From Lachnospiraceae bacterium (GTDB lineage Bacteria; Bacillota; Clostridia; Lachnospirales; Lachnospiraceae), in NCBI GenBank assembly GCA_022794255.1, contig JAAWEL010000047.1:1-64000 (forward strand): a DNA stretch of 64,000 nt, given 5' to 3'. The first letter of the stretch is position 1. Every line of letters starts with the position of its first letter. The notes beneath the pieces were generated by a model. It was not told where the DNA came from. It worked only from the letters and a program-made list of their open reading frames with translations, and ran no database searches. The translations under genes were made by a program, and so were the position numbers. Of this stretch, positions 21,826-43,581 are shown piece after piece.

Positions 21826-23061
21826 TTATTTTGTTCCGAACTGAGCATCCAACTTCCGATAAAGTTCCTGAGCCTCTCGGGCACGTTTTAAAACAATGTC
21901 TGTCTCTGGGATCTCGATATCGTGAATCAGCATGTTTCGCAACTTTCTAAGAGAAATAATGGCTCCAATACAGTCTTGGCTTAACAGATTCATACGCTTT
22001 AAGGAATTGATGTGAAAAGCGCCCTTTTGTCTGGGGGAAGTGATCTGATTTAACAGATTTTCCAAGGGAACCCAGCTTTCTAAAAACTGATGGGTCGCCT
22101 GATGCCCTGCCTCATCAATGGTATGGTTGATGGAGCGGAGTTCCTGATAGGTCTGGTAATATTTAGCATTGCCAGTGATGATCTGGTCGATAATTTGTTG
22201 GGATATGTTCCTTTTATCCTTTTCAAATTTTACGGATTTCATGACTGGCTCAATGGCTTTGACACTGTTCATTTCCAGATGGCTGATAAGCCGGTATAAA
22301 AGTTCGATATCTCCCATGCGCAGCTCAACATCTTCCTTGCGGAAATTGATGCTTAAGTAGTTATACAGATAAGAGGCAAGATCATATTGGCTGTCAAAGG
22401 AGGATTTTTTGTTGAGAATCCTCTTGTCACCAGCGATCTGAAGCCGTTCTAAGGCAATCTCACCTGAGAGGACCAGACCATTCAGCTCGTCAATAATAGC
22501 AAGCTCTTCCTCTGAAAGGCCTCCCTGAAGCGGCTTATAGATCAGGTCGTGCTCTACCTCTGACCAGGCATGCATCAGCAGAGATGCCACCTGGATTTCC
22601 AGACGTGCGGAGGAATATCGTTTTTGGGCCTGCGTCAGGGTATCTTCCTTAAGTGTTGCCCGATAATGAGTGGCCCAGTAGCCGGAGAAGCGCCGGTTGT
22701 AAGTGGGAGGGCTGGATTGTTCAGGAAAATGGCGAATACTCTCAATTGCGAACTGGTCGGAAATCAGATCACCGGTTTTGTTGCGGTCACCGGGGAAATA
22801 TAAGGATACCCGAATGCCGCACAGATCCGCAATATCATCATAGATCTCTTTCATATTTTTGTAGGGTGTCTGGCGCTTGGTATTCCGGCGGATTACCTTG
22901 GTTTTCAGCCGGTCAGGATTTTTGGCGCGGGAGGTGACCATGGCGCGGATACCAGCTGACTGCAACACCGCCTCCAACTGAGCGGCGGCCAGTCTGCCAG
23001 CCGCCTCATAAAAAGGCATTTTCTTTTTGTAATTTTCAATAAACTGGCTGACTAAATCCAT
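21826..23061 (-). CDS. RelA/SpoT-domain nucleotide pyrophosphokinase with HEPN-like C-terminus
   Basis: A 411-residue protein. The N-terminal half is a RelA/SpoT synthetase domain: basic segment NPDRLKTKVIRR, IADLCGIRVSLYFPGD, the guanine-stacking Tyr in FSGYWATHYRATL, and LEIQVASLLMHAWSEVEH. There is no HD hydrolase, TGS or ACT domain, so it is not RelA or Rel; it is about twice the size of RelP/RelQ. The last 80 residues are helical and contain SLRKLRNMLIHDIEI, an R-x4-H motif (Arg375, His380) as in HEPN domains, followed by a helix ending YRKLDAQFG. The ATG at 23061 follows AGGAGG; a longer frame from 23121 lacks a ribosome site. Product could be (p)ppGpp, (p)ppApp or RNA modification. Confidence 0.82.
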   Translation of the reverse strand: MDLVSQFIENYKKKMPFYEAAGRLAAAQLEAVLQSAGIRAMVTSRAKNPDRLKTKVIRRNTKRQTPYKNMKEIYDDIADLCGIRVSLYFPGDRNKTGDLISDQFAIESIRHFPEQSSPPTYNRRFSGYWATHYRATLKEDTLTQAQKRYSSARLEIQVASLLMHAWSEVEHDLIYKPLQGGLSEEELAIIDELNGLVLSGEIALERLQIAGDKRILNKKSSFDSQYDLASYLYNYLSINFRKEDVELRMGDIELLYRLISHLEMNSVKAIEPVMKSVKFEKDKRNISQQIIDQIITGNAKYYQTYQELRSINHTIDEAGHQATHQFLESWVPLENLLNQITSPRQKGAFHINSLKRMNLLSQDCIGAIISLRKLRNMLIHDIEIPETDIVLKRAREAQELYRKLDAQFGTK

Positions 23062-23291
23062 ATTGGCCTCCTTTTCCCAAATCATTGTCTTTAAGTATAA
23101 CAAATCAAGCCAGGAAAACAAGGGGATTTATAAAGATTTCTGTGGATTTCTTCATTGAAATATATTATGATATGGCAGAATATGATGAGATATGGAAAGA
23201 TCGGACGAAATACAGCGAATTATGTCAGAAAAAGCTGGCTGCTTCGCCTGTCTGAGCTTTTATGGAAAACAGAAAGAGAAAGGAAGTATCT

Positions 23292-36367: not shown

Positions 36368-36504
36368 TTGCTGATAATTTATAAAATTGTTCCTAACAGC
36401 GGGTCAGATATTTTGTCATAATCCAGACAACAAATGGGAATACTCTGGAAAGTGCTTCTGGAAATATTTCTGAGAGATGACCCTGGAAAGAGGAGGTATG
36501 TGTG

Positions 36505-37794
36505 ATGTCAGGAAAGAAACATAAGCAAAATCCCTTCCGAAGATGCCTGGTCTGGACTTTCTGGCTCAGTTTGTTCTCTGCCATAGGGTTTACCTGGTAT
36601 TATGTGGAGCGGCGGGTTCCGGACCATCTCAATGTGGTGGTAAATGAGGAGGAGGAATTTAATTTTGCACTGCCCTTTGACGTGAGCCTGCTCAGCGACA
36701 GTGAGGAAGTGGTGCTGGGGAATCAGTCCAATATCCCGTCTGATGAGATCCGTCTTGGGGTAGATGAGTCTTTCTCTCTGTATGGAAAAAATCAGGGAAG
36801 CTATCGCCTTGGACTTAAATTGTTCGGACGTTTTCCTTTTAAGGAAATTCAGGTGGATGTGGTGGACACACACTATGCGGTTCCCTGTGGTGTGCCGGTG
36901 GGAATCTATCTTAAGTCAAAAGGGGTTCTGGTGATCGGAACGGGCCGGATTCGATGCCGGGATGGTGAAGAGGTAGAGCCGGCATATGGTGTGCTTCAGT
37001 CTGGTGATTATATCGAGGCGATCAATGGGGAGCCTTTGCGGGATAAAGAGGCTTTGATCAGCAATCTGAACCACAGCGGAGGCCAGGAGGCTGTTTTGCG
37101 GGTCCGCAGAGATGGGGAGGAGTTGGAGATCCATATGAATCCGGTTCAGGCAATGGATGGAAATTATAAGCTGGGAGCCTGGGTGCGGGATGATACCCAG
37201 GGAATCGGAACCCTGACCTATGTGGACACGAATGGAAACTTTGGCGCTTTGGGGCATGGGATTAGTGACAGTGATACAGGAGAGGTGGTGGAGATCCAAG
37301 AAGGGGCTTTGTATGAAACAGAGATTATGGGAATCGAGAAAGGGAGCGCAGGCAACCCAGGGGTAATGGCCGGAGTGATTTACTATGGTCCCGGATCCAG
37401 TTTGGGAACGATTGAAGCCAATACCAAGGTGGGAATTTTTGGAAAGGTCAATGAAAAGCTGCAGAAATCTTTGGGTGTGGAGCCAGTGGAGATCGGCTAC
37501 CGACAGAATGTAAAGAAAGGCCAGGCCTGGATTCGCAGCAATGTATCCGGGGAGCTTCGGGATTATGAGATTGAGATTCAGCGGGTAGACTACAATCCTA
37601 TCCAGGAGAATAAAAGCCTGGTTCTTAAGGTGGTGGATGAGGAGCTTTTGCGGCTTACAGGAGGAATCGTTCAAGGCATGAGTGGTAGCCCGATTATCCA
37701 GGACGGAAAGCTGGTTGGGGCTGTGACGCATGTATTTGTGCAGGATTCCACCAGAGGTTACGGGATATTTGTGGAAGATATGCTCCGGCATTGA
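36505..37794 (+). CDS. spoIVB: SpoIVB signalling serine peptidase
   Basis: A 429-residue sporulation protease that, in Bacillus, is made in the forespore and triggers processing of pro-sigma-K. It has an N-terminal membrane helix (LVWTFWLSLFSAIGFTWYY), a PDZ domain (about 125-210, GDYIEAINGEPLRDKEAL), and an S55 peptidase domain with His in ALGHGISDSDTGE and Ser in VQGMSGSPIIQDGKLVGAV. ATG 36505 follows AGAGGAGG; the GTG just before it is also in frame. spo0A, its usual downstream neighbour, is not found next. Confidence 0.94.
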   Translation: MSGKKHKQNPFRRCLVWTFWLSLFSAIGFTWYYVERRVPDHLNVVVNEEEEFNFALPFDVSLLSDSEEVVLGNQSNIPSDEIRLGVDESFSLYGKNQGSYRLGLKLFGRFPFKEIQVDVVDTHYAVPCGVPVGIYLKSKGVLVIGTGRIRCRDGEEVEPAYGVLQSGDYIEAINGEPLRDKEALISNLNHSGGQEAVLRVRRDGEELEIHMNPVQAMDGNYKLGAWVRDDTQGIGTLTYVDTNGNFGALGHGISDSDTGEVVEIQEGALYETEIMGIEKGSAGNPGVMAGVIYYGPGSSLGTIEANTKVGIFGKVNEKLQKSLGVEPVEIGYRQNVKKGQAWIRSNVSGELRDYEIEIQRVDYNPIQENKSLVLKVVDEELLRLTGGIVQGMSGSPIIQDGKLVGAVTHVFVQDSTRGYGIFVEDMLRH

Positions 37795-38034: not shown

Positions 38035-38115
38035 AATTATAATTATTCATCTATACGGTAATTTATACAGGATTTTATATGGAAAAGGTGATGATTTAAA
38101 TCTCATTTTGTGTTA

Positions 38116-38144: not shown

Positions 38145-38178
38145 AAAAGAAATTGGATTTTGCAAGGAGAAGAGGGTT

Positions 38179-39249
38179 ATGCAAAGGATACTGGTGGTGG
38201 ATGACTCGGAATTGAACCGTGAGCTTCTGCAGGACATGCTTAAGGATGACTATGTGATTGAGATGGCGGAGGACGGAAAACAGGCGATCCACAAGCTTGA
38301 GGAGTACAGCCGTGAGACAGCAGCGCTTTTATTGGATCTGAATATGCCGGTGATGGATGGCTTTTCCGTGATTGCCGAGATGAGAAGGAACGGATGGATG
38401 AAAAAAATCCCTGTGCTGATCATAAGCAGTGAGTATGCGGCTGAGGTGGAGAGCACCTGCTTTGAGCTGGGAGTCTCCGATTTTATTCACCGGCCTTTTG
38501 AGGAAAAGATTGTCAGAAACCGGGTAAGGAATACGATAGAGCTGTTTGCCTGCAAGAACCAGCTGGAAGAAAAGGTGGAGGAACAGGAGGAACAGATTGA
38601 GGAGCAAAAGAATATTATCCGGCAGCAGGCGGAAAAATTGAGAGAGGAGAAATCTTTTAATAAGCTGATGCTGGAATACAGTGCCGCCATTATGGAGGTG
38701 GAGACAAGGCTTCGAGTGCTCAATAAGGAATTTTCCCAGGAATACAACCGGAATCCTTTTGAGTCAATTATGAGCCGTTTAAAGTCACCAGAAAGTATCT
38801 TTGAGAAACTGGAACGGAGAGGGTTCCCTGTATCAGTGGAAAGTATTCGGGAAAACCTTACCGATGTGGCGGGACTCCGTGTGATCTGCTCTTTTCCGGA
38901 TGATATTTACCGTCTGGCAGAGCTTTTTACCAGACAGGACGACATTATTCTCATGGTGGAGAAGGACTATATAAAGAATCCCAAAACCAATGGCTACCGA
39001 AGCCTTCATCTTATTTTGAGTGTCCCGATCTTTTTATCCAATGAGAAGAAATATGTCAGTGTGGAGGTGCAGTTTCGGACGATTGCCATGGATTTCTGGG
39101 CCAGCTTAGAACACAAGCTGAAATACAAAAAGAATATAGGAAAGACAGATGATATTGAGGAGCAATTGAGAAATTGTGCAGACTCGATTGAGGAACTGGA
39201 TTATCAGATGCAGGAAATTCGCAATAAGATTGACCGGTTTCGAGCATAG
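38179..39249 (+). CDS. Receiver domain fused to RelA/SpoT (p)ppGpp synthetase
   Basis: A 356-residue fusion. Residues 1-120 are a CheY-like receiver: acidic pair Asp8-Asp9, phospho-Asp53 in LLLDLNMPVMDGF, Ser83/Ser84, and Arg105 (FIHRPFEE) in place of the usual switch Lys. Residues about 125-165 form a Glu/Gln-rich coiled coil. Residues about 170-330 are a synthetase domain of the RelQ type: SRLKSPESIFEKL, LTDVAGLRVICSF, Tyr273 in GYRSLHLIL, Glu296 in VEVQFRT and His312 in LEHKLKYKK. No hydrolase domain is present. Start 38179 follows AAGGAG; a frame from 38110 has no receiver sequence. Phosphorylation may gate alarmone synthesis (inference). No kinase gene adjoins it. Confidence 0.9.
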   Translation: MQRILVVDDSELNRELLQDMLKDDYVIEMAEDGKQAIHKLEEYSRETAALLLDLNMPVMDGFSVIAEMRRNGWMKKIPVLIISSEYAAEVESTCFELGVSDFIHRPFEEKIVRNRVRNTIELFACKNQLEEKVEEQEEQIEEQKNIIRQQAEKLREEKSFNKLMLEYSAAIMEVETRLRVLNKEFSQEYNRNPFESIMSRLKSPESIFEKLERRGFPVSVESIRENLTDVAGLRVICSFPDDIYRLAELFTRQDDIILMVEKDYIKNPKTNGYRSLHLILSVPIFLSNEKKYVSVEVQFRTIAMDFWASLEHKLKYKKNIGKTDDIEEQLRNCADSIEELDYQMQEIRNKIDRFRA

Positions 39250-39253
39250 ACTG

Positions 39254-39280
39254 TTAGCACTCACTAAAAATGAGTGCTAA
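39254..39280. promoter_or_regulatory. CIRCE element (HrcA operator)
   Basis: Exact consensus: TTAGCACTC (39254-39262), nine bases, GAGTGCTAA (39272-39280). It lies eight bases upstream of the -35 box of htpG. Because TTTT follows at 39281, it may also act as a terminator for the preceding gene. Confidence 0.97.
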
Positions 39281-39287
39281 TTTTCTG

Positions 39288-39316
39288 TTGACATTTGTTC
39301 CTACTCGTATTAGAAT
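39288..39316 (+). promoter_or_regulatory. Sigma-A promoter of htpG
   Basis: TTGACA (39288-39293), 17 bases, TAGAAT (39311-39316). The start codon is about 140 bases downstream, leaving a long leader. Confidence 0.88.
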
Positions 39317-39459: not shown

Positions 39460-41463
39460 ATGGGCAGTAAATCAGGTAATTTATCGATTAACAGTGAGAA
39501 CATATTTCCGATTATCAAGAAGTGGCTCTATTCGGACCATGACATTTTCTACCGGGAGCTGGTGTCCAATGGCTGTGATGCCATTACCAAGTTAAAGAAG
39601 TTAGAGCTGATGGGAGAGTACACCAAGCCAGAGGATTTGGAGTACAAGATTCAGATCACCGTAGATTCAGAAGAGAAGTCTATTCGGGTAAAGGACAACG
39701 GCCTGGGGATGACTGCGGAGGAGGTGGAGGAGTATATTAATCAGATTGCATTCTCCGGCGCGCAGGATTTCCTGGAAAGATATAAGGATAAGGCCAATGA
39801 GGATCAGATTATCGGTCATTTCGGACTGGGCTTTTATTCGGCCTTTATGGTAGCGGATAAGGTGACGATTGATTCCCTGTCTTACAAGGCAGGAAGCACC
39901 CCGGTTCACTGGGAGTCTGAGGGCGGACTGACCTTTGAGATGAAGGACGGGGACAAGGAGGACCAGGGGACGGTCATCACCCTGTATCTGAACGAGGACA
40001 GCTATGAGTTCTCCAATGAGTACCGGGCCAGGGAGGTGCTTGACAAGTACTGCTCTTTCATGCCGATCCCGATTTTCCTTGACAATGCCAAGGCAGAGCC
40101 GGAGTATGAGACGATTGATAAGGAAGAGCTGACGGACAAGGATACCATTGTTGAGACGGTGGTAGAGCCGGCCAAGACGGAAGAGAAGGAGAATGAGAAC
40201 GGGGAGAAGGAGACAGTGGAGATTGAGCCTTCCAAGGAGCGTTATAAGATCGTAAAGCGCCCGGTGGCGCTTAATGACACTACTCCGCTGTGGAACAAGC
40301 ACCCCAACGAGTGTACCGAGGAGGAGTACCGCTCCTTCTACCGGAAGGTGTTTATGGATTACAAGGAGCCTCTTTTCTGGATCCACCTGAATATGGACTA
40401 TCCGTTTAATCTGAAGGGGATTCTCTATTTCCCCAAGATCAATACGGAGTATGATTCCATTGAGGGCACCATCAAGCTTTACAATACCCAGGTGTTCATT
40501 GCAGATAATATTAAGGAAGTGATCCCGGAATTTTTGATGCTGTTAAAGGGCGCTATCGACTGTCCGGATCTGCCGCTGAATGTTTCCCGGAGTGCCCTGC
40601 AAAATGACGGCTTTGTGAAGAAGATTTCGGATTATATCACCAAGAAGGTGGCGGATAAGCTGACGGGTATGTGCAAGACTGACCGGGAGAATTATGAGAA
40701 GTACTGGGATGACATTGCGCCCTTTATCAAGTTCGGCTGCATCAAGGATGAGAAATTTGCCGAGAAGATGAATGACTATATCCTGTTTAAGAATCTGGAA
40801 GGCAAGTATCTGACCCTGAAGGATTATCTGGAGGAGAACAAGGAGAAGCATGAGAACAAGGTGTTCTATGTGACAGATGAGAAAGAGCAGAGCCAGTATA
40901 TCAACCTGTTTAAGGAAGAGGGACTGGATGCAGTGATTCTTCCCCACAATATTGACAATCCTTTCATCAATCATTTGGAGCAGAAGAATGAGGGGCTGAA
41001 ATTCCTGCGGATTGATGCGGATCTCAACGACACCTTCAAGGAAGAGGTGAAGGAGGATGACGAGGAGTTTAAAAAGACAGCAGAGACTCTGACAGAGATC
41101 TTCAAAAAGGCTTTGGGCAATGATAAGCTGGAGGTCAAGGTGGAGAAACTGAAGAACGAGAACATTTCTTCCATGCTGACTGTGGCAGAGGAGAGCCGCC
41201 GGATGCAGGATATGATGAAGATGTACAATATGTATGGTATGGATCCCTCCATGTTCGGCGGCGCCGGTGAGACCCTGGTGCTCAATGCCAACCACAAGCT
41301 GGTGCAGTATGTATTAAAACATGGGGAAGGGGAGAATACGGCCAAGTTCTGCGAGCAGTTATATGACTTGGCGCTTTTAAGCCACGGTACCCTGAATCCG
41401 GAGCGGATGACGAAGTTTATTGCCCGGAGCAATGAGATTATGATGATGATGGCTGGGGAATAA
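39460..41463 (+). CDS. htpG: Hsp90-family chaperone HtpG
   Basis: A 667-residue ATP-dependent chaperone. The N-terminal GHKL ATPase domain shows SNGCDAITKLKKL, VKDNGLGMTAEEVEEYI, and IGHFGLGFYSAFMV. An acidic charged linker (about 215-270) separates it from the middle domain (GILYFPKINTEYDSIEG, NVSRSALQND). The C-terminal domain lacks the eukaryotic MEEVD end. The start follows an AACAGGAGTGA ribosome site. A CIRCE element and sigma-A promoter upstream indicate HrcA heat-shock control, unlike the HrcA-independent htpG of Bacillus subtilis. Confidence 0.97.
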   Translation: MGSKSGNLSINSENIFPIIKKWLYSDHDIFYRELVSNGCDAITKLKKLELMGEYTKPEDLEYKIQITVDSEEKSIRVKDNGLGMTAEEVEEYINQIAFSGAQDFLERYKDKANEDQIIGHFGLGFYSAFMVADKVTIDSLSYKAGSTPVHWESEGGLTFEMKDGDKEDQGTVITLYLNEDSYEFSNEYRAREVLDKYCSFMPIPIFLDNAKAEPEYETIDKEELTDKDTIVETVVEPAKTEEKENENGEKETVEIEPSKERYKIVKRPVALNDTTPLWNKHPNECTEEEYRSFYRKVFMDYKEPLFWIHLNMDYPFNLKGILYFPKINTEYDSIEGTIKLYNTQVFIADNIKEVIPEFLMLLKGAIDCPDLPLNVSRSALQNDGFVKKISDYITKKVADKLTGMCKTDRENYEKYWDDIAPFIKFGCIKDEKFAEKMNDYILFKNLEGKYLTLKDYLEENKEKHENKVFYVTDEKEQSQYINLFKEEGLDAVILPHNIDNPFINHLEQKNEGLKFLRIDADLNDTFKEEVKEDDEEFKKTAETLTEIFKKALGNDKLEVKVEKLKNENISSMLTVAEESRRMQDMMKMYNMYGMDPSMFGGAGETLVLNANHKLVQYVLKHGEGENTAKFCEQLYDLALLSHGTLNPERMTKFIARSNEIMMMMAGE

Positions 41464-41528: not shown

Positions 41529-41627
41529 GACAGAAGAGAAGAATCGTACTAAAATCAGAAACAGATGCAGACCGGATCTTCTAAAACAGGGAATATGGGG
41601 CAGCTATTTAAGGAGGGATACAGGATA

Positions 41628-42416
41628 ATGGAACGAATATATAAATATCCAAGAACTCGTCATGTGGAAGGTTCAAGAAAACAGGCAGGGGACGAGGATC
41701 TGAACAGTGTAAAATTTGCAGAGATCCGGGGGAAATATCTGATTTTGGAAGAGAAGATTGACGGAGCCAACTGTGGGATCAGCTTTGGGGAGGACGGCAG
41801 GCTGTATTTGCAGAGCCGGGGGCACTTTCTGGACGGAGGATGCAAAGAGCGGCAGTTTGATATGCTGAAGGTGTGGGCAGAGTGCTTTCGGGAGGGGCTT
41901 TGGCAGGTATTGGGAAGCCGCTATGTGATGTACGGGGAGTGGATGTTTGCCAAGCACACGGTATTTTATGATGAACTTCCCCATTATTTTCTGGAATTTG
42001 ATATTTTTGATAAGGAAGAGGAGCGTTTTTTTTCCACAGCAAGGAGAAGAGAAATTTTGAAAAAGGCACCTTTTGTCCAGTCTGTACCAGTCTTGGAAAC
42101 CGGGCGATATGAAAAGCTTTCGGATATAACCGGGCTGATCGGGCATAGTAATTTTATATCAGAGGAACCGGCAAAAGCTCTCCGGGAGCAGTGTGAAAAA
42201 TATGGAGTGGATGAAGAGAGAACAAGAAACCAAACGGATCTTGGCGGGATTATGGAAGGAATTTATATCAAGGTAGAGGAAGGGGACTATACAGTGGACC
42301 GGCTGAAATTTGTCCGCCATTCCTTTCTCAATTCCATTCTGGATTCAGAGAGCCACTGGATGAACCGGCCTTTGGTGGCCAATCGGCTGGCAGATGGGAA
42401 GGATCTGTTTCGGTGA
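41628..42416 (+). CDS. Rnl2-like RNA ligase
   Basis: A 262-residue ATP-dependent nucleic-acid ligase. The adenylation motif is EEKIDGANCGI with Lys43 as nucleophile. Further nucleotidyltransferase motifs are YGEWMFAKHTVFY (motif III-like), GIMEGIYIKVE (motif IV) and DRLKFVR (motif V). The size fits the single-domain-plus RNA ligases of the Rnl2 group, which seal 3'-OH/5'-phosphate RNA nicks. The ATG at 41628 follows AGGAGGGATACAGG. It is followed 31 bases later by a gene for an end-healing enzyme, so the pair forms an RNA-repair cassette. A DNA substrate is not excluded. Confidence 0.85.
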   Translation: MERIYKYPRTRHVEGSRKQAGDEDLNSVKFAEIRGKYLILEEKIDGANCGISFGEDGRLYLQSRGHFLDGGCKERQFDMLKVWAECFREGLWQVLGSRYVMYGEWMFAKHTVFYDELPHYFLEFDIFDKEEERFFSTARRREILKKAPFVQSVPVLETGRYEKLSDITGLIGHSNFISEEPAKALREQCEKYGVDEERTRNQTDLGGIMEGIYIKVEEGDYTVDRLKFVRHSFLNSILDSESHWMNRPLVANRLADGKDLFR

Positions 42417-42447
42417 GGTCACCTGGCATGGAGAGAGGAGTGAGACC

Positions 42448-43581
42448 ATGGAGCATGGCAGGGAAGGGATACTAAGCTGGATTCGGGAAAGTATGTTTTC
42501 TTTAGACCAGCTGACAAAACGGTATCCGGAACTGGAAATCTTAAAAGGGGTACCTCAAAACCCAGAGTATCATGGGGAAGGAGATGTGTATATCCATACC
42601 GGTTTGGTCTGTGAGCAATTGTGCAGCCTTTCAGAATGGGCCGGGCTCACGGATCGTGAACAGGAAGGCTTGTTTTTGGCGGCAGCCTTTCATGATATCG
42701 GAAAACCTGCCAGCACAAGGTTCGAGGAGGGCAGGTGGACCTCTCCCAAACATACCATTGTGGGGGAAAAGGTGTTTCGGGCTATGGCATATCGGGGAGG
42801 AAAGGGATTTGGGATGACCTTTCAGGAGCGGGAGCTGGCCGCTAAGCTGGTGCGCTTTCACGGACTTCCTGTGTGGTTCTGGAAAAAGAAACGGATGGAC
42901 TATGATCTTTTGCGGGCAGCAGAGGTGGTGCCTCTTAGGCTTCTCTGGCTTTTGGCAAAGGCAGATGCCAGAGGAAGGATGTGCCAGACACCGGGGGAGC
43001 TAGAGGAGCAGGGGAAGCTGTTTGCAGAGTACGGGAAGGAGCTGGGAGTCTGGGAGAAGCCCTATCCTTTTGCCAATGCCTATACCAGGTACCAGTATTT
43101 TCATAAGGAGGAAATGCAGCCAGGGGTACAGCTTTACGATGATACAAAGTTTGATGTGTGGATGATGGCAGGGCTGCCCTTAGCAGGAAAAGATACATGG
43201 ATCGAAAAAAATGGCGCTGGAAGAACGGTGATTTCCCTGGATGAGATCCGGAAGGAGCTGGGGATTTCGCCTAAAGACGGCTCAGGTAAGGTGGCCAATC
43301 TGGCCATAAAGCGGGCCAGAAATCTGCTGCGGAAACAAGAGTCCTTTATCTGGAATGCCACCAACCTGCTGCAGGAAACCAGACAACGCCTGGTGAGGCT
43401 GTTTGCAGGATACGGAGCGCGGGTGCATATCCTGTATCTGGAAACGCCCTATGAGGAGCTGTTAGAGAGAAACCGGGTAAGAGAGCGGCAGATCCCGGAA
43501 AAGGTGTTGGAGCAGATGATTGATAAACTGGAAATGCCAGAGCCCTGGGAAGGGTATGAGGTGATTTTTAAGGAGAGCTGA
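42448..43581 (+). CDS. HD-Pnk-type end-healing enzyme (HD phosphoesterase plus polynucleotide kinase)
   Basis: A 377-residue two-domain enzyme. The N-terminal HD domain has a full metal-ligand set: His50, His82-Asp83 in AFHDIGKP, His102, His138 and Asp173 in AKADARG. The C-terminal kinase domain has Walker A GLPLAGKDT (Lys248), SLDEIRKELG and WNATNLLQETRQRLV, as in 5'-OH polynucleotide kinases. The order matches HD-Pnk of Runella, which removes 2',3'-phosphates and phosphorylates 5'-OH ends. The ATG at 42448 follows GAGAGGAGTGAG. Together with the ligase it could restore RNAs cut by endoribonucleases. Confidence 0.87.
   Translation: MEHGREGILSWIRESMFSLDQLTKRYPELEILKGVPQNPEYHGEGDVYIHTGLVCEQLCSLSEWAGLTDREQEGLFLAAAFHDIGKPASTRFEEGRWTSPKHTIVGEKVFRAMAYRGGKGFGMTFQERELAAKLVRFHGLPVWFWKKKRMDYDLLRAAEVVPLRLLWLLAKADARGRMCQTPGELEEQGKLFAEYGKELGVWEKPYPFANAYTRYQYFHKEEMQPGVQLYDDTKFDVWMMAGLPLAGKDTWIEKNGAGRTVISLDEIRKELGISPKDGSGKVANLAIKRARNLLRKQESFIWNATNLLQETRQRLVRLFAGYGARVHILYLETPYEELLERNRVRERQIPEKVLEQMIDKLEMPEPWEGYEVIFKES

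Follow-up and report, generated by a model that had tools for sequence, protein, structure and literature searches.

The receiver-synthetase gene and its surroundings

The DNA analysed here, called the window in the following, is a stretch of 64,000 nucleotides from the genome of a Lachnospiraceae bacterium. At 38179-39249 (+) it contains one open frame of 356 codons without interruption, coding for a response-regulator receiver that is joined through a coiled coil to a small alarmone synthetase. The individual features are as follows.

38164..38169, + strand: AAGGAG, probable ribosome-binding site, 9 nt 5' of the ATG (from the sequence)
38179..39249, + strand: receiver - coiled coil - small alarmone synthetase, 356 aa (open reading frame, Pfam, 30 further distinct homologues)
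38188..38526, + strand: response-regulator receiver, residues 4-116 (Pfam PF00072 Response_reg, 75.7 bits, cut-off 30.2)
38335..38337, + strand: codon of Asp53, phospho-acceptor by homology, 31/31 (homologue alignment)
38503..38646, + strand: receiver helix 5 extended as coiled coil, residues 109-156 (model, period, alignment)
38653..39234, + strand: RelP-like (p)ppGpp synthetase, residues 159-352 (PF04607, phmmer, Foldseek)
38773-39135, + strand: Pfam RelA_SpoT core, residues 199-319 (PF04607, 114.3 bits, cut-off 27)
38980..39009, + strand: G-loop region, residues 268-277, PKTNGYRSLH, with Pro268 (RelP-type) and Tyr273 (guanosine-stacking), both 31/31 (roles as described in PMC5794853)

A GTG at 38110, further upstream and in frame with the ATG at 38179, is a less probable start, as the alignment of the homologues begins at the ATG. 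A first-pass annotation had read the product as a receiver followed by a synthetase without hydrolase, and the domain search bears this out: Pfam places Response_reg at residues 4-116 and RelA_SpoT at 199-319, and detects no HD hydrolase domain, hence no HD or HD-GYP output. A fusion by chance or assembly error is very unlikely, because 31 distinct proteins have the same domain order in one open frame.

Upstream of the gene is recN-spoIVB (spoIVB at window 36502-37794), a pair that is often followed by spo0A. The idea that the fusion is a converted Spo0A was rejected, as an intact spo0A is present on contig C82 (L006, G000:C82), whereas spoIVB is on another contig of the source genome. The stretch after spoIVB is variable within the genus, with Spo0A encoded there in 2 of the 20 loci (of 22) that extend at least 1 kb downstream. 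On the other side, a perfect TTAGCACTC-N9-GAGTGCTAA at 39254-39280, which we take to be a CIRCE/HrcA operator, begins 4 nt after the stop codon of the fusion and precedes htpG (39460-41463), as does an 11/12 promoter match at 39288; the hairpin at 39254-39280 also scores as a terminator for the fusion gene. No RNA family was found at gathering score near the fusion gene. Downstream of htpG, at 41565-43581 (+), a gene for an RNA_ligase domain overlaps one for an HD and an AAA_33 (polynucleotide-kinase-like) domain, and the two possibly form an RNA repair pair.

Anatomy and conservation of the fusion protein

The homologues from the window, from 13 further genomes and from a scan of named genomes amount to 33 loci and 31 distinct proteins. 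The coiled coil proposed by the first-pass annotation is supported by an AlphaFold2 model of the fusion protein, in which residues 109-156 form a single helix of 48 residues, and by hydrophobicity that recurs every 3.50 residues across 111-156 in the 31 homologues. The monomer model was built on a 45-row alignment and reaches a mean pLDDT of 90.2 with a pTM of 0.65, a value at which the domain arrangement is not fixed by the model. After a one-residue break at 157, the first synthetase helix runs from 158 to 189. The linker (residues 105-164) is free of indels in all 31 homologues, 14 of which have a proline at residue 159, in keeping with a hinge at this position.

Both the residues (D8, D9, D53, S83/S84 and R105-P-F) and the motifs (KSPESI at 202-207, GYRSLH at 272-277, E296xQ298 and LEH at 310-312) pointed out at the first reading are correctly placed. 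The receiver pocket of the window copy consists of the acidic pair D8/D9, the phospho-Asp D53 and S83, with Arg105 in place of Lys. Among the 31 homologues, D9, D53, P57 and D101 are invariant, S or T occupies position 83 throughout, and D8 is present in 30. The replacement of the switch Lys by Arg, noted earlier for this protein, is no trait of the family, as Lys is found in 29 homologues and Arg in 2, the window copy and one other.

The roles of the synthetase residues were assigned from a gapless alignment to RelP of Staphylococcus aureus (offset 122) and from the residues named in PMC5794853, which gives K202, S206, K210 and R213 for ATP, D229 and E296 for Mg, and Tyr273 in the G-loop. As judged from this alignment, the synthetase has the ATP, Mg and guanosine residues and the G-loop proline of the RelP type. 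K202, S206, K210, D229, P268, Y273, E296 and Q298 occur in 31/31 homologues, and R213 in 29/31. Note that Pro268 is also found in both stand-alone synthetases of the genome and in 45/45 rows of alignment A4, and is therefore no marker of the fusion protein. The synthetase has the lowest rough median dN/dS (0.07), followed by the receiver (0.14) and the linker (0.19), taken from the 92, 165 and 141 pairs, respectively, of 465 that have a dS under 2.5, with dS near saturation. These values indicate that purifying selection acts on the receiver and the linker as well as on the synthetase, and the alignment indicates that a phosphorylation pocket and a synthetase active site, both complete, are kept together by selection in the 31 homologues.

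Relatedness of the synthetase domain

The best phmmer matches of the synthetase among solved structures are RelP from S. aureus (6ewz, 184.9 bits) and from Bacillus subtilis (166.7 bits), followed at about 129 bits by RelQ, and Foldseek gives a TM score of 0.93 to S. aureus RelP, normalised by target. The NCBIfam equivalog model for RelQ, GTPPhKinYjbM, scores 171 bits and stays below its cut-off of 320 bits. The match to the PADLOC candidate PDC-S33 (82.8 bits, 133-308) is confined to the synthetase part. Enzymes of the RelP type, which make (p)ppGpp and form homotetramers, consist of a single domain, whereas the fusion carries a receiver and a coiled coil at its N-terminus and is therefore not filed as RelP.

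The genome has five RelA_SpoT loci, namely a long RSH (on C11), two stand-alone small synthetases (C17 and C2), the fusion, and a weakly matching locus in the window. This last one is a second unusual synthetase-like gene, coding at 21826-23121 (-) for a protein of 431 aa with a weak N-terminal RelA_SpoT match (45.6 bits, 22534-22932 (-)) and a C-terminal helical part of unassigned kind, which contains the sequence RNMLIH, presumably resembling the Rx4H motif of HEPN proteins. A gene from another genome (L059 1149-2600, G029:C70), considered as a further receiver-like fusion, was rejected: it codes in frame for a small alarmone synthetase and a GDSL/SGNH hydrolase-like domain (483 aa), and was seen in this one genome only, which is 67% complete.

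Small synthetases are described as mostly single-domain proteins with few exceptions (PMC7591505). The first-pass annotation had characterized RelP and RelQ as single-domain enzymes under transcriptional or ligand control, which agrees with the accounts in PMC10117726 and PMC5794853, but the fused enzymes RelZ and CapRel stand as exceptions among small synthetases.

Origin and distribution

The survey of the architecture across genomes that had been suggested at the outset was carried out at several taxonomic levels. Among 397 sampled genomes of the family, the full-length fusion is found in 13, one each in 13 genera, with identities of 68-75%, and a clean gap separates these matches (E <= 3e-159) from those to the synthetase only (E >= 3e-85). 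The fusion also occurs in 2 of 116 relatives, in none of the 23 other genomes of the genus and in 3 of 392 genomes of the order, all within the family, while a set of 398 genomes of the phylum contained the window's own copy only. A scan of named genomes yielded at least 19 fusion loci among the best 80 matches, mostly from Lachnospiraceae assemblies and including the isolate Petralouisia muris.

A tree built from 134 synthetase domains has all 31 fusions on one side of a branch with a support of 99/96, and three stand-alone synthetases (L086-L088) are nearest to this clade. The receiver and linker were used as query against 200 genomes of the family, from which 22 of the 23 fetched non-fusion loci were evaluated and one with an in-frame stop was excluded. 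All 22 of these nearest non-synthetase relatives contain a receiver, and 21 of them an HD domain. For the 13 of these 22 relatives that have 340-390 aa the homology to the window protein extends through the coiled coil, and the linkers of nine of these 13 align without gaps, with 9-18 identities of 38 positions vs 3.1-4.2 in shuffled sequences; beyond residue 157 the identity drops to about 16%, which places the end of the homology at about residue 156. As far as these alignments go, response regulators that have HD(-GYP) as their output are the source of both the receiver and the coiled coil. The first-pass annotation had likewise sought the origin of the receiver on the HD-GYP side; this view stands on the homology across the coiled coil, but not on the RPF sequence offered in its favour, which was rejected as a mark of origin since 29/31 homologues have KPF and the Arg is peculiar to the window copy and one other. 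Because the synthetases form a single clade and the receiver-HD homology runs through the coiled coil, the comparison points to a single output swap near residue 157, which put a synthetase where the coiled coil had led into an HD(-GYP) domain. One receiver-HD relative in the window genome (G000:C56:68956-73958) has a hybrid kinase within about 3 kb and possibly represents a pair of the parental type.

The surroundings of the fusion gene differ from locus to locus: the 30 loci counted, which do not include L083, have 161 neighbours, of which 126 are singletons, and no conserved neighbour that might hint at the function was found among the 161. For 12 of 14 carriers, the pairwise identities of the fusion proteins do not follow those of Dxs (Spearman -0.16, Mantel p 0.73). 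In a tree of Dxs sequences from 12 carriers and from 25 non-carriers that hold the candidate kinase described below, the carriers require 11 label changes compared to a mean of 10.2 after shuffling, which is clustering no greater than that of shuffled labels, and a single clade of carriers is rejected (p-AU 0.00035). The differing neighbours and the scatter of the carriers on this host tree, which is built from Dxs as a single gene, make it probable that the fusion spreads horizontally between genera of one family; the module would thus have arisen once, by exchange of an HD(-GYP) output for a small synthetase, and moved between genera later. A possible alternative source of the scatter is a large number of losses. 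Horizontal spread is argued from the scatter and not from a vehicle, because none of the 1224 plasmid records with any match and none of 90 phage records cover 80% of the fusion protein, and a scan of viral contigs gave no relative of the fusion.

A candidate kinase

At one locus, L073 from an uncultured Lachnospiraceae assembly, a gene for a hybrid histidine kinase of 1047 aa with the domain order PAS-PAS-HisKA-HATPase-REC-REC lies 7 nt upstream of the fusion gene on the same strand. This is the one locus in which the kinase adjoins the fusion, and the only histidine kinase among 56 immediate neighbours scanned. The orthologue in the window genome, G000:C20:41435-44575, is unlinked to the fusion gene, and among 14 carriers examined the orthologue is never found beside the fusion or another receiver-synthetase. 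Three carriers (G254, G178 and G404) have a shorter form of the kinase, which in G254 ends with one C-terminal receiver instead of two. The kinase looks cytosolic, because four copies lack any stretch resembling a membrane helix (best 19-residue mean 1.1-1.2).

In a comparison of 32 genomes, orthologues with 62-79% identity are present in 13/13 carriers and in 4 of 19 non-carriers, the latter picked by hand. The sensor half was also surveyed in 397 family genomes, which appear identical to those of the fusion survey, as both number and handles agree. It matched 42 genomes, of which two with matches to residues 1-257 only were excluded, and the remaining 40 comprise 13/13 carriers and 27/384 non-carriers (Fisher p 1.5e-14, a value that ignores kinship). 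As the kinase is present without the fusion in 27 genomes, it must have other targets. A different class of hybrid kinases, judged by eye among the matches listed, occurs in 11/13 carriers vs 9/19 others (p 0.062). The identity patterns of the kinase correlate weakly and not significantly with those of the fusion (Spearman 0.35, Mantel p 0.078), nor is the correlation with the fusion receiver significant (0.23, p 0.16). A niche or clade in common may be the reason why kinase and fusion occur together.

Proposed function and alternatives

Taken together, the protein is probably an orphan response regulator of a gut bacterium, in which phosphorylation, likely by a kinase of the C20/L073 type, would switch the synthesis of (p)ppGpp. 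We infer that the synthetase is active and coupled to a phosphorylated receiver as follows. A histidine kinase, most likely the soluble PAS-PAS-HisKA-HATPase-REC(-REC) hybrid kinase encoded at G000:C20:41435-44575, would phosphorylate Asp53, and the receiver would change its shape. The last receiver helix, continuing as a two-stranded coiled coil, would then turn or re-register the first synthetase helix, and the production of (p)ppGpp would switch within seconds and without new transcription. The first synthetase helix may be the natural input point, because that of RelQ is described as lining the cleft through which pppGpp stimulates the G-loop (PMC5794853). As to the sign, we slightly favour an unphosphorylated receiver that holds the synthetase off and releases it on phosphorylation, because the rigid G-loops of the RelP type are described as always ordered and active (PMC5794853); this argument applies equally to the other small synthetases of the host, to which Pro268 is common.

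The strongest competitor, which carries a substantial though lesser probability, leaves the phosphorylation of the receiver to other kinases or to acetyl phosphate and makes the C20-type kinase a bystander that co-occurs by kinship or niche. It would account for the lack of linkage in the 14 carriers, for the 27 genomes with the kinase alone and for the weak correlation of identities, and these genomes have many hybrid kinases to choose from. On the other hand, the two genes are 7 nt apart on one strand in L073, the kinase is present in 13/13 carriers, which come from 13 genera and lie dispersed over the Dxs tree even if only genomes with the kinase are compared, and the other class of hybrid kinases leans less to the carriers among the matches listed. 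It is rather unlikely that the receiver is a protein-binding or dimerising module without a practical phospho-switch, with the synthetase set by expression or nucleotide ligands as in RelP and RelQ. Most loci are indeed without an adjacent kinase, the window copy has Arg105, and a G-loop of the RelP type (PMC5794853) predicts a constitutively competent enzyme; yet a receiver used for binding only could lose its pocket, whereas D53, D9 and S/T83 are kept in 31/31 homologues and D8 in 30/31, and the linker is devoid of indels.

Less probable still is a synthetase that makes another product, such as pGpp from GMP, an adenosine alarmone or pyrophosphorylated tRNA, with the receiver as a safety catch. 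Small synthetases do vary in substrate, with RelZ described as preferring GMP (PMC8622095) and toxSAS as acting on tRNA or making (pp)pApp (PMC11782079), but the domain is closest to RelP by sequence and fold and has the guanosine-stacking Tyr273 in 31/31 homologues. The genome moreover has its own long RSH on C11, and the genes for relatives of this subfamily stand alone and seem to be tolerated. An inactive synthetase in a protein that serves as sensor or scaffold is highly improbable: nothing speaks directly in its favour, the listed substrate and metal residues are present in 31/31 homologues except for one at 29/31, and the dN/dS value is the lowest of the three parts.

The switch by phosphorylation thus remains the preferred reading. 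With the receiver in the same chain, a sensor kinase would govern (p)ppGpp without an intermediate step, in the way that c-di-GMP is governed in PleD and WspR. The question of what regulates RelP-type enzymes post-translationally, as raised in PMC5794853, would be turned by the fusion into an experiment on one protein, with the unlinked, co-occurring kinase as the first candidate partner. More tentatively, a single mobile gene may plug the stringent response into a resident sensor, settling only where the unlinked hybrid kinase pre-exists and bringing (p)ppGpp under direct and transcription-free control by a two-component system; this would represent a new wiring of the stringent response and make the fusion a one-gene effector dependent on that kinase.

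Comparison with known systems

The fusion resembles the receiver-GGDEF regulators PleD and WspR in placing a second-messenger enzyme under a receiver, but these belong to another enzyme family and make another messenger; the better matches of the fusion receiver in NCBIfam and the PDB include PleD, and WspR (PA3702) is a Foldseek match. With the RpfG-like receiver-HD(-GYP) regulators it shares a homologous receiver and coiled coil up to about residue 156, where they have an HD output and the fusion a synthetase. With RelP/SAS2 (YwaC, SasA) it has in common the synthetase fold, the ATP, Mg and G-loop residues and the RelP-type G-loop proline, but these enzymes lack a receiver and a coiled coil, and their published links to two-component systems run via transcription, by VraRS and WalKR (PMC10117726), or consist in an operon partner, as in relRS of Streptococcus mutans (PMC4963387). 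RelZ, which joins RNase HII to a synthetase, and CapRel, a toxSAS fused to an antitoxin and phage sensor, likewise combine a small synthetase with a second domain, which in CapRel controls the activity. Both are without a phospho-receiver; the partner domain of RelZ is a second enzyme, and that of CapRel senses phage capsid on a tRNA-modifying toxin. A term search of the text of the RSH survey PMC3153485 found no receiver, and searches of the open-licence literature gave no description of a receiver-synthetase architecture, although domain databases may list it. The receiver and the synthetase are thus each known, and what is new is their coupling.
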